DNA of 41,675 nt from a virus, in IMG/VR virus record IMGVR_UViG_3300045256_000251, positions 1 through 41,675 of that record. One strand, 5' to 3'. Shown in pieces: positions 3,860-38,937 of the stretch. The position numbers and the translations under genes are program-made. The first letter of the stretch is position 1. Each line of letters opens with the position of its first letter. The notes beneath the pieces were generated by a model. That model was not told the origin of the DNA and did no database searches. It saw nothing but the letters and a program-made list of their open reading frames with translations.

Positions 3860-4792
3860 TCAGCCGGCCATGTCCAGGGCGGCGGTGAGGGCGCGGGCGT
3901 TGATACTGGCCGAGTCGCCGTACCACAGGGAGTTGACGCGGGAGTCAGGGCTGCGGCCGCGTTCGTGGGTGAGCCACTCGCTCACCGCGTTGTAGGCGGC
4001 CCAGTACGTCCCACGGACGGAGGGGAGGTTGTTGCCGGCGCCGGCCTCGAACAGCGACGTGATCTTCTCCAGGATGTTGCGGAGCCTTGGGCCGGGCTTC
4101 TCTGGGGCGTCCAGGACGCGGGCGACGTAGCGCTTCAGGTCCGCCTGGTTGATGTCCTTCGTGGCCAGCCGGCGGTACTGCTCCGCCGTCGCCTCGAACT
4201 TGCCGTCGATGGCGTTGACCGCCTCGCGGACGTTCTCCAGGTTGGCGACGACGCGCGAGGAGTGCCGCACCCTCAGCAGCTGGCTGTCCTTGCTGCCGTG
4301 TGCCATCGTCAGGGTGTTGTTGCACACCACGCGGATCGGGGTGAAGCCGACCCGCACCGCCAGGCTTCCGTCGTGGCTGTTGGACAGCAGCAGGTACTTG
4401 ACCACTTCATCTCCCCGTGCCACCTCCATGGGGGAGCGGTTGAGCCGGGCCAGGACCCAGACGCGGGAGCCGCCGGCCAGGCTGCCGGCCGTCTCCAGGC
4501 TGGCCTCGCCCGCCTCCAGGAACGGGGTGAACCAGGCGAACGCCTCCCTGTTCTGCAACGGCCGGTAGCGCTCGCCGACCGCACCCAGCACCTTGTTGTC
4601 GCTGTCGCGGACGACGGCGAAGGCGGGGGCGCGTTGGCCGTCCAGGGTGATGAGCGGCTTGCGTTCCACCCGCCAGTCCAGGCCGGCCAGGCGCAGGCCG
4701 TCCTCGACGGTGGGCGGGTCATTCAAGACGGTGCCCAGCCCGTGCCAGGCGGGCCTGCGGACGCTGAACATGTTCTCGACCATGTGGCTCAC
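3860..4792 (-). CDS. DUF932 (phage/plasmid-like) protein
   Basis: A 310-residue member of the DUF932/TIGR03299 phage-plasmid family. Landmarks are MFSVRRPAWHGLGTVLND at the N-terminus, AVVRDSDNKVLGAVGERYRPLQN, WVLARLNRSPMEVARGDEV, VGFTPIRVVCNNTLTMA, and RGTYWAAYNAVSEWLTHER near the C-terminus, which is the family's most conserved block. The family is common in phages and conjugative plasmids and usually sits among replication and repair genes; its biochemical function is not established. The start is GTG 4792 with a CTGGAG site, and an ATG three codons later is an alternative. It is the first gene of the leftward unit ending at the hairpin 2560-2584. Confidence 0.9.
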   Translation of the reverse strand: MSHMVENMFSVRRPAWHGLGTVLNDPPTVEDGLRLAGLDWRVERKPLITLDGQRAPAFAVVRDSDNKVLGAVGERYRPLQNREAFAWFTPFLEAGEASLETAGSLAGGSRVWVLARLNRSPMEVARGDEVVKYLLLSNSHDGSLAVRVGFTPIRVVCNNTLTMAHGSKDSQLLRVRHSSRVVANLENVREAVNAIDGKFEATAEQYRRLATKDINQADLKRYVARVLDAPEKPGPRLRNILEKITSLFEAGAGNNLPSVRGTYWAAYNAVSEWLTHERGRSPDSRVNSLWYGDSASINARALTAALDMAG

Positions 4793-4983
4793 GGTGCGTA
4801 CTCCAGGGCTGCCGCCGGACCCGGACGGCGCGGGCTGAGGTCCAGGGCGGGCCGTCCGCCCCGGCTGCTCGGTCGGGTTGTGTGTGGGGTTGGGCGAGGG
4901 AGACGAGAAAGCTATCGAACGGGTCCAATCATCCCAAATTCAGGCCGCAGGGTCAAATACCCCGGGAGGTCTGCAAGCGGGCC

Positions 4984-8394: not shown

Positions 8395-8853
8395 TCACAG
8401 CTCATTCCCTTCCTCGTCGTAGAACCGTTCTTTCCCTTTTCGGTCAGCCAGCGCGTAGTAGCGGTTCTCGCTGTCCCAGGTTGCCCCCCTGCGGACCAGT
8501 TCGTCGATGCGATCGGCCCTCTTCTCCAGCTCCCACCTGAGCTTCTCCTCCTCGATCTCGGCGAAGAGTATCCACATCTCCGCCTCTTCGTGGCTGGCGA
8601 ATTTCGGGATCAGCTTCTTGTGACGCTTCTCGTGGCACGCAGCACAGAGCGTCACGAGGGCATAAGCAGGGTATTCCCAGGGCTTCTTGCCCGTGACGTA
8701 GTGCTCGTGGTGGCAATGTATTTTGACGCCGGTTTTGCTGCAATCTACGCAGGTGCGGCGGTCGCGTTCATAGATTTCCGCCCGCTTCTCCTTCCATTCC
8801 GGCCTCTCAAGCTGCCTCCTGTACCACTCCTTCGTGTCCATTGCCACCCCCAT
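8395..8853 (-). CDS. HNH endonuclease
   Basis: A 152-residue HNH nuclease. TCVDCSKTGVKIHCHHEHYV supplies two zinc cysteines (C35, C38) and the catalytic H-H pair (H48/H49), and LVTLCAACHEKRH supplies the second cysteine pair (C70, C73) and the closing H78. This is the beta-beta-alpha metal fold that cuts double-stranded DNA. The C-terminal 70 residues are charged and helical. ATG 8853 has a GAGGGGG site. An internal ATG at 8841 (MDTKEWYRRQ) is an alternative and gives the more typical N-terminus. In phages such genes either assist packaging or are free-standing homing nucleases. This one is about 19 kb from the terminase, so homing or accessory use is more likely. Confidence 0.9.
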   Translation of the reverse strand: MGVAMDTKEWYRRQLERPEWKEKRAEIYERDRRTCVDCSKTGVKIHCHHEHYVTGKKPWEYPAYALVTLCAACHEKRHKKLIPKFASHEEAEMWILFAEIEEEKLRWELEKRADRIDELVRRGATWDSENRYYALADRKGKERFYDEEGNEL

Positions 8854-35057: not shown

Positions 35058-35323
35058 CGCCGCCTCCGCCTGTGTTCGGGCTCTGTTCCGGGACGCCGCC
35101 CTCGGCGTCCCGGCGTGGGGCCGAACGGCCGACCTCCCCACCCCGCACGCCCTTCCGGCGCTCAGAGCCCAACTCCGGGTTGGGTATTTCCGTCGGGTCG
35201 CAGGCCGACGGGCCGAACGTCGCTCGCGGTGGTTATGAGCCGCCGCCGGGCGCCGGCCCGCCTGTGCTTGGCGCCGGGTGGCGTCCGCTTTCGCGGCCGC
35301 ACCCGGCGCGCGGGAGGTAGATC
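35058..35323. other. Structured non-coding gap between capsid genes
   Basis: This 266-base gap has no gene I can support. It contains a perfect 10-bp hairpin CGGGACGCCG-CCCT-CGGCGTCCCG (35089-35112), a second CCCAAC-TCCGG-GTTGGG, and GC-rich arms around GGCGCCGG and CCGGCGCC at 35247-35300. Read leftward, it could end transcription from the capsid operon in part or form an RNA that tunes expression of the next gene. Confidence 0.4.
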
Positions 35324-35981: not shown

Positions 35982-37070
35982 TTAGTTCTTCCACTTGGTG
36001 AAGTTGCGCGGGGACGAAGTCCGCAGGTTCCCGAAGAAGTCGATCGAGAACCGCCAGGTCTGCGTGGCCGGGTCGAAGTCCGGGCCTTCGGGCACGAACA
36101 GTTGGCCCTGGAGCGAGCACAGCTCCATGCACTCCAGGCACAGGCCGTAGCCGAGGTTGGTCGGCACGCCGTACTCGTAGGTGACCTCGCAGCCCTCGAA
36201 GTTCACGAAGTCCTTGAAGCCGAGCGACCAGAGGCCGAGGTCCTCGCCGCGCGTGACGACGAGGCGCTCGTTCGTCTCCAGCTTCTCCTCGAACAGGCGG
36301 TACAGCTCGTTCTCCAGGAACACCGTGTCCATCATCCCCTTGCGGGACTTGTTCCGGCGGCCCTTGATGATCCCGAACCGCAGCGCCTCGCGGCACTGGT
36401 TGGCCCAGTTGTGCGTGGCCGCGCTGAAGCTCGTCGAGGTGTACTTGACGATCAGCGGCGTCCAGAAGTCGTAGTGGGCGTCCCCCGTGCCGCTCGGCCA
36501 GTTGACGTTGGACGACACCGTGCTCCAGTTGCCGCCGTAGTTGCCCAGCGCGGTGCTCAGGCCGGCGTAGCTGTCCGACGGGACGTAGACGTAGCCGGCC
36601 GCCGCCTCGGAGCCGGTGTCGCCGAGGAACGACTCCAGGCCGTGGATGCGCTTGCTGTTGCCGGTCGCGTTCCCGTCAACGTACAGTTCGTCCCCGAACT
36701 GATCTTCCATGTCCTCCATGAGGTTGGTGGCGATCTCGGAGTACACCTTGACGATCGCCTCGGTGTTCTTGTTGATCAGCCGCTCGCGCTTGGTCATCGC
36801 GTCGGTCGCGGCGTACCCGCGCCAGTCCAGCTGGGCCGTCTTCCAGCGGTCCCGCCTGGTGAACGTCAGGGTGTCCATGTCGGCGTAGCCGGTCATGGGA
36901 ACCCGCTTGAACCGCACCTTCCAATCCAGCAGGTCGCCGCTGTGGTTGAAGGTGATGCGCCCCCGCTGCTTCAGCAGCGCGAGCATCTTCCGGTTGCGGA
37001 GGACGTTAACCTCCTGCTCCCGGATGAACTTGTGGATCGTAGTGTTTACGATCCGACTCCACTCGGCCAT
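35982..37070 (-). CDS. Major capsid protein (HK97-type fold expected)
   Basis: A 362-residue coat protein. The N-terminal helices MAEWSRIVNTTIHKFIREQE, VNVLRNRKMLALLKQRGRIT, a middle AQLDWRGYAATDAMTKRERL, INKNTEAIVKVYSEIATNLM and C-terminal MMDTVFLENELYRLFEEKLE, TNERLVVTRGEDLGLWSLG show the long spine-helix and A-domain texture of phage coat proteins. Scaffold upstream and a decoration protein downstream support the call. The ATG follows GAGGCTGAGCC. Fold assignment is from sequence pattern and context, not from structure. Confidence 0.88.
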   Translation of the reverse strand: MAEWSRIVNTTIHKFIREQEVNVLRNRKMLALLKQRGRITFNHSGDLLDWKVRFKRVPMTGYADMDTLTFTRRDRWKTAQLDWRGYAATDAMTKRERLINKNTEAIVKVYSEIATNLMEDMEDQFGDELYVDGNATGNSKRIHGLESFLGDTGSEAAAGYVYVPSDSYAGLSTALGNYGGNWSTVSSNVNWPSGTGDAHYDFWTPLIVKYTSTSFSAATHNWANQCREALRFGIIKGRRNKSRKGMMDTVFLENELYRLFEEKLETNERLVVTRGEDLGLWSLGFKDFVNFEGCEVTYEYGVPTNLGYGLCLECMELCSLQGQLFVPEGPDFDPATQTWRFSIDFFGNLRTSSPRNFTKWKN

Positions 37071-38351: not shown

Positions 38352-38712
38352 CTATGCGGGAGACATAGGGCCAGGTTGCCCGAACTCGGCCAGCCTTCCC
38401 GAGGAGCCCGTCAGCGCGGAGCTAGGGCGCGGAGGCGCAGACCCAGGAAACCGGAGGGTCGGTGGCGGTGGAAGACGCCCGAGAGTTCCGGTCCGGCGGC
38501 GCGGGTAAGGTGACGACGAACGGCCCGCGTGCAGGGAGGTCTAGCTGCATCGGGGCGTAGCGAACCCCACGTCCCCCGCCGGCGCAGTGACGGGTGAAAG
38601 GGTCGTAACTGCGTCAACAAAACCACCGGCCCCAACGCACACTCCGAGCCATACGGATCGAACGTGCGGACCCCGGGACTCAGCCGGCTTTTCGCCGCGT
38701 TGGCCCGGGGTC
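38352..38712 (+). ncRNA. Candidate structured non-coding RNA
   Basis: Within a 1.4-kb gene-free region, eight perfect inverted repeats follow one another without crossing: CTATG/CATAG (38352-38368), GACCC/GGGTC (38440-38460), CGCGGG/CCCGCG (38500-38529), TGCAG/CTGCA (38530-38549), GGGG/CCCC (38552-38568), TGACG/CGTCA (38588-38616), CGCAC/GTGCG (38636-38668) and GACCCCGGG/CCCGGGGTC (38669-38712). The last two abut and could stack. Short GNRA-like and GAAA stretches lie in loops and joins. Strand is set to plus because of G-rich, A-rich loop character on that strand; it is not certain. No known RNA family was recognised. Confidence 0.45.
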
Positions 38713-38937
38713 GATGCGCCTCCAACCACCGGCTCGAACTTGGGGTGGATGAGTCGAAGGACAACGCGACGCCGAAGCGCTGGTTGATGTCCCATGCCAG
38801 GCAGAACATCACAGATGGAAGCATTGAGGTTAACGGCTCGCTCATTGTTCGGCAGCGCCATTTCTTAATCATCAATCGGTGGAACAAGAAAGACAGGTAC
38901 ACCAGTTATCACGACGCCGTACATAGGGCCGTACTCC

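Follow-up and report, generated by a model that had tools for sequence, protein, structure and literature searches.

Among the structured RNAs described in phages, the closest counterparts of the locus analysed here are GOLLD and ROOL, which are encoded by phages and prophages at an independent non-coding locus and whose function is unknown (PMC12286853). The RNA described here occupies the same niche and is comparable in kind, but its sequence is unrelated to theirs. It is encoded in a 41,675-base record of a virus of bacteria (the window, meaning this whole stretch of DNA), in a gene-poor stretch where positions 38352–38712 had been flagged as a possible large structured RNA. Judged from its homologs, an RNA family almost certainly exists. 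This adds a compensation-supported family to the small set of orphan structured phage RNAs, and one that spans planctomycete genomes and phages with few or no proteins in common.

The flagged interval is gene-free, as the original prediction had proposed, lying between a scaffold-like gene on one strand and a gene on the other (Table 1). The proposed shift in composition relative to the flanking genes is also real, in both strand bias and GC content. The RNA would be read from the plus strand, away from the capsid operon. A consensus scan found no promoter before it on that strand, and hairpin E is not followed by a U-run. The lack of an ordinary promoter consensus may be explained by the sigma-70 family factor (TIGR02937) that the window phage encodes (9541–10119, plus strand). 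Upstream of the RNA copy in one relative (L003, ~4800–4850, minus strand), a sigma-70-like TTGACT-17-TTCAAT can be seen by eye; it is not in the consensus-scan listing. Elsewhere in the window, positions 3860–4792 (minus strand) encode a TIGR03299 phage/plasmid-like protein (E 6.5e-81).

What is the evidence that this interval encodes a structured RNA? The original prediction pointed to a run of perfect inverted repeats, and the pairs it named are present, but neither their number nor their arm length exceeds that of shuffles of this 70% GC stretch. There are nine serial perfect hairpins with an arm of at least 5, versus 7.7 ± 1.3 in shuffled sequence (51 of 200 shuffles are as good), and the longest perfect arm, of 9, is equalled in 33 of 200 shuffles. 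The energy excess proposed as a check is likewise absent, with the minimum free energy (MFE) at the shuffle mean (z −0.33 for the plus strand, −0.47 for the minus strand and −0.58 when the calculation was repeated). For GC-rich members of the family, folding energy is uninformative. None of 200 shuffles folds as well as the L280 member (z −3.56), and the remaining members have MFE z-scores between 0.2 and −1.9. Support for a structured RNA therefore comes from homologs and compensatory changes, not from inverted repeats or energy.

Six relatives of the RNA were found, giving at least seven members with the window: the window itself, four further virus genomes whose genes are partly unrelated, and two planctomycete bacterial genomes. 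Relatives of the major capsid gene, gathered from IMG/VR, were the first source of homologs. One of these (L003, capsid 79% identical) has the RNA at the same intergenic position, with collinear blocks at 38363–38391, 38503–38526 and 38574–38628. Another (L010, capsid 58%) has, in the same place, a hairpin whose stem is entirely different but whose loop has 15 letters in common with the window, GGTGACGACGAACGG. A scan for this 15-mer added L280 and L221, among the matches listed; further family members probably exist beyond those matches. The loop is accompanied in L280 by hairpin C, the CAAAACC tail and the 3′ hairpin, and in L221 by the 3′ hairpin. The phage that carries L280 (G002) has no protein detectably in common with the other RNA-bearing phages. 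R1, a covariance model whose only inputs were the window and L280, recovers L003 (57.2 bits, E 7e-9) and finds L341 (42.6 bits), in a genome from the phylum to which a Gemmataceae MAG belongs (Planctomycetota). A second model, built from four members (R2), finds L346 (62.6 bits, E 2e-12) in another genome, from the class of the same MAG. L010 and L221 score 27–31 bits, a range that a false positive within coding sequence also reaches (L353, 31.2 bits); they were accepted because the 3′ E motif is present and, for L010, also because of its genome position.

L353 itself, a match in the phylum of a deltaproteobacterial MAG (G012; 331 genomes), was rejected because it lies inside a coding frame, and the motif lookalikes L270, L311 and L319/L320 appear to sit inside genes. 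No match was found among 247 Acidobacteriota genomes with R1 or among 289 Verrucomicrobia genomes with R2. Other major-capsid relatives (L004–L009, L011–L013 and others) gave no convincing model match, and blastn against cultured phages and plasmids gave no convincing match. Pattern scans with CAAAACCACCG, AAGGTG...CTGCG, TAAGGTG...CGAACGG, CATAGNNCCAGGTTG and CAGTGNCG...CAAAACC returned only copies already known. Overlapping searches of 392, 170, 398 and 95 planctomycete genomes yielded two distinct carriers, a count that is a lower bound because the filters were strict. This rarity among the planctomycete genomes searched is more in keeping with a mobile element than with a housekeeping RNA of the host. 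From the two planctomycete genomes we infer that the window phage infects a planctomycete. A close capsid relative, L009, has a different, strongly structured RNA of ~420 nt in the same genomic place (4315–4735, minus strand; z −3.53, reached by 0 of 100 shuffles), closed by ACAACCGAG/CUCGGUUGU and with an end hairpin followed by a T run. It matches neither Rfam nor the window-family model, and may be a second RNA family, unrelated or highly diverged.

Table 1. Features of the structured RNA and its surroundings, in window coordinates.
Feature	Position	Strand	Remarks
Major capsid gene	35982–37070		phrog_9953
Scaffold-like gene	37102 to ~38220 (start)	−	Borders gene-poor stretch; upstream of major capsid gene
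Structured RNA	38352–38720 (approximate limits)	+	Collinear homology with six relatives; covariance model
Hairpin A	38368–38381	+	GGGC-CAGGTT-GCCC; two members only
Hairpin B	38499–38530	+	Arms 38499–38505 / 38524–38530; loop 38506–38523
Helix D	38538–38540 with 38622–38624	+	GGU, proposed pairing; joins two distant strands
Hairpin C	38583–38613	+	CGCAGU-GAC ... GUC-GUA(bulge)-ACUGCG
Conserved tail	38618–38624	+	CAAAACC; in window, L003, L280, L341, L346; ACC is the 3′ strand of helix D
Hairpin F	38636–38668	+	Inverted repeat CGCAC 38636–38640 / GTGCG 38664–38668; weakly conserved
Terminal hairpin E	38669–38712	+	Inverted repeat GACCCCGGG 38669–38677 / CCCGGGGTC 38704–38712
3′ motif	38707–38719	+	GGGGTCGATGCGC; end of hairpin E
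Next gene past RNA	Start 39627 or 39856	+	

The conserved elements span ~370 nt in the window and ~230–280 nt in L280; the 5′ limit can be placed from few members. In the predicted structure, the supported helices are B, C, the terminal hairpin E and the short D, with A in two members only. The original proposal of a structured RNA is supported for the plus strand, but several of the stems originally listed are incidental. The most conserved element is the 18-nt loop of hairpin B, TAAGGTGACGACGAACGG in the window and GGUGACGACGAACGG family-wide. This loop is nearly fixed while its stem varies freely: GCGCGGG/CCCGCGU in the window, CGGGG/CCCCG in L003, CCCCGG/CCGGGG in L010, GAUCAGG/CCUGGUC in L280, CCGGA/UCUGG in L341 and CUGGG/CCCAG in L346; the stem is weak in L221. 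Hairpin C follows the consensus CGNNGU..ACNNCG with the CAAAACC tail, and its outer stem is CGCAGU/ACUGCG in three members, CGGAGU/ACUCCG in L341 and CGGUGU/ACACCG in L346. Hairpin A is GCCC-CAGGTT-GGGC in L003, with two compensatory changes and the loop kept. Helix D is nearly invariant, so its covariation support is weak; in L280 the 3′ arm of B shares bases with the 5′ strand of D, such that D and B may exclude each other there. Equivalents of hairpin E, of 10–12 bp, occur in L010, L221, L280, L341 and L346. The motif at its end, GGGGUCGRUGCGC (R is A or G), is exact in the window, L010, L221, L280 and L341, and partial in L003 and L346. For hairpin F, hairpins of similar size were seen in L003 and L346, by eye only.

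In an alignment of the seven sequences, which was fitted to the model and so favours structure, 95.7% of pair cells are paired, versus 31–48% in register-shifted controls in which partners were slid. Compensatory changes on both sides affect 7 of 16 pairs with seven sequences and 10 of 19 pairs with six, both counted in model-fitted alignments. The covariation score is 0.378 versus 0.125 in shuffles, with none of 500 shuffles as good, and the figures for pairing and compensatory pairs were likewise reached by none of the 500. The covariation that the original prediction had named as a check is therefore present in the seven-sequence alignment. No reading frame is open across all seven members. 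A model-free comparison agrees: 6 of 108 distinct occurrences of GGTGACGACGAACGG among those listed have the 3′ E motif 80–230 nt downstream, and a stem of at least 5 pairs at the fixed position accompanies the 15-mer in 5 of these 6 versus 1 of the other 102 listed. G-U pairs in the plus sense favour the plus strand. Sequence comparison shows that the family has at least three supported helices (B, C and E) and occurs both in two planctomycetes and in phages that have no recognisable proteins in common.

How might such an RNA act? A stand-alone phage RNA acting in trans is the most likely reading, and a reasonably probable one. It would be a non-coding RNA of ~360 nt on the plus strand, made as an independent transcript with a strong GC hairpin at its end, and with the invariant B loop and the CAAAACC tail forming a recognition or tertiary-contact site. 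It could work in trans on a factor common to hosts (ribosomal, RNA-polymerase or RNA-decay) or, alternatively, self-assemble, which has been proposed for GOLLD and ROOL. Either a host target in common or self-assembly is suggested because the RNA is conserved across unrelated carrier phages that have no recognisable common protein to serve as a dedicated partner. Action in trans is preferred because the genes that follow the RNA differ, their distances vary widely (~60 to ~900 nt) and the carrier phages share few or no proteins. L346 is near Rad52-like and HNH/AP2 genes, a mobile-element-like setting, and L341 adjoins a weak DUF1580 match. The RNA might instead be a cis-acting leader of the same-strand downstream gene, for example a riboswitch, an attenuator or a thermosensor-like element. 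A start codon lies ~60–75 nt past hairpin E in L280 and L346, an ORF lies within ~200 nt of the RNA in L003, and hairpin E looks like a terminator stem. However, the next gene is ~900 nt away in the window (39627) and ~800–900 nt away in L010, neither a U-run nor an alternative anti-terminator is conserved, and RNA-bearing phages of different lineages have no detectable common protein, meaning that the downstream genes are not homologous. A leader is rather unlikely. The copies in the window, L003 and L010 are directly upstream of scaffold-like and capsid genes, pointing away from them, which would fit a role at the portal or in the capsid for a packaging or structural RNA of the phi29 pRNA type. 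This is improbable given that the L280 copy has DNA-metabolism genes (helicase, exonuclease VIII) on one side and small membrane-protein genes on the other, that two copies are in contigs of bacterial genomes, that the terminase belongs to the ordinary large-subunit family (phrog_2), and that the related phage of L009 lacks the family. We give a similarly low chance to a DNA-level element (an origin, a recombination site or a packaging site) whose palindromes merely look RNA-like. Such an element would fit an intergenic module boundary with GC-rich inverted repeats, but conservation is highest in a loop, substitutions in the stems compensate each other, plus-sense G-U pairs are present, and the position differs among phages. 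The window itself shows no excess of folding energy or of inverted repeats, which could even mean that there is no structured RNA, only a low-complexity GC coincidence. The homologs contradict this reading, which is exceedingly improbable: the models recovered sequences that had not gone into them (E 7e-9 and 2e-12), and the loop occurs together with the stem and the 3′ motif.

A more specific alternative to a stand-alone RNA comes from one phage. Downstream of the L280 RNA, on the same strand, G002 encodes csf1 (TIGR03114, E 2e-9), csf2 (TIGR03115, E 7e-6; PDB 7jhy, E 3e-4), csf3 (TIGR03116, E 2e-5) and a cysH-like gene, which is the gene set of type IV-B Cas systems. The matches are below curated cut-offs, indicating a divergent version. 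In this operon (L329:2871–6271, minus strand), a 171-aa protein occupies the place of cas11. The RNA could therefore be the guide or scaffold of a type IV-B-like Cas complex, with Csf proteins of the phage or host loading it in place of a crRNA. The natural RNA of type IV-B complexes is not known, and a purified type IV-B complex contained heterogeneous non-CRISPR RNA (PMC7937560). On the other hand, several genes separate the RNA from csf1, a lone co-occurrence can be due to chance, and profile searches for csf1 and csf2 found neither in the window (G000) nor in G001, G003, G008 and G004. Association with type IV-B as a family-wide rule was rejected on the basis of these five records, and a guide function is very unlikely. 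A bolder version, to which we give still less credence, is that the RNA might be the missing natural partner of type IV-B-like complexes, loaded into Csf filaments by phages or hosts, with the B loop as a recognition handle and with phages that lack csf genes engaging or decoying the complexes of their hosts. The operon beside the RNA in this one phage provides a sharp hypothesis to exclude. As a comparison, the likeness to a type IV-B ribonucleoprotein is limited to one member lying upstream of csf1, csf2, csf3 and cysH, whereas no repeat-spacer form was seen in the RNA, and neither csf1 nor csf2 was found in the other five phage records searched.

The family is absent from Rfam and probably represents a kind of viral RNA not described before. 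At the gathering level, the window had no Rfam match and loci L002–L013 had only tRNAs; a relaxed search (E up to 10) returned only noise around the window RNA, as did relaxed thresholds for L280 and L341. The original prediction had been unable to match the RNA to GOLLD, ROOL or an intron, and the empty Rfam result for the window agrees. Among titles and abstracts of openly licensed papers on orphan phage RNAs and planctomycete structured RNAs, none was recognised as describing the family. With the covariance model, diagnostic motifs and coordinates for all seven members, the family can now be searched for.

How does the family compare with other known systems? Group I and group II introns give no Rfam match, and the RNA is intergenic. 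Neither ARAGORN nor Rfam identifies the RNA as a tRNA or tmRNA, and a resemblance to RNase P seen by eye was dropped because there is no Rfam signal. HEARO and OMEGA RNAs (partners of IscB and TnpB) are similar in being structured RNAs of mobile elements; they give no Rfam match here, and no IscB or TnpB gene was called beside the RNA. A small window protein that matches the HNH part of the IscB model (8395–8853, minus strand; E 3e-8) is encoded 30 kb from the RNA. The phi29 pRNA is also a compact phage-encoded RNA, and some members of the window family lie beside morphogenesis genes as it does. However, there is no Rfam match to phi29-type pRNA, members of the window family are also found in bacterial genomes and at sites not beside morphogenesis genes, and the large terminase is ordinary. 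A homo-oligomeric RNA cage is one mark of GOLLD and ROOL. Like them, the window RNA has a non-coding locus of its own in a phage. It differs from them in having no Rfam match and in length: GOLLD and ROOL are ~600–900 nt and often lie near tRNA islands, whereas the window family is ~230–370 nt, with a single tRNA-Met gene (35196–35266, minus strand, amid capsid-module genes) ~3 kb from the RNA in the window. The window family is further set apart from GOLLD and ROOL by its own conserved loop and 3′ hairpin.
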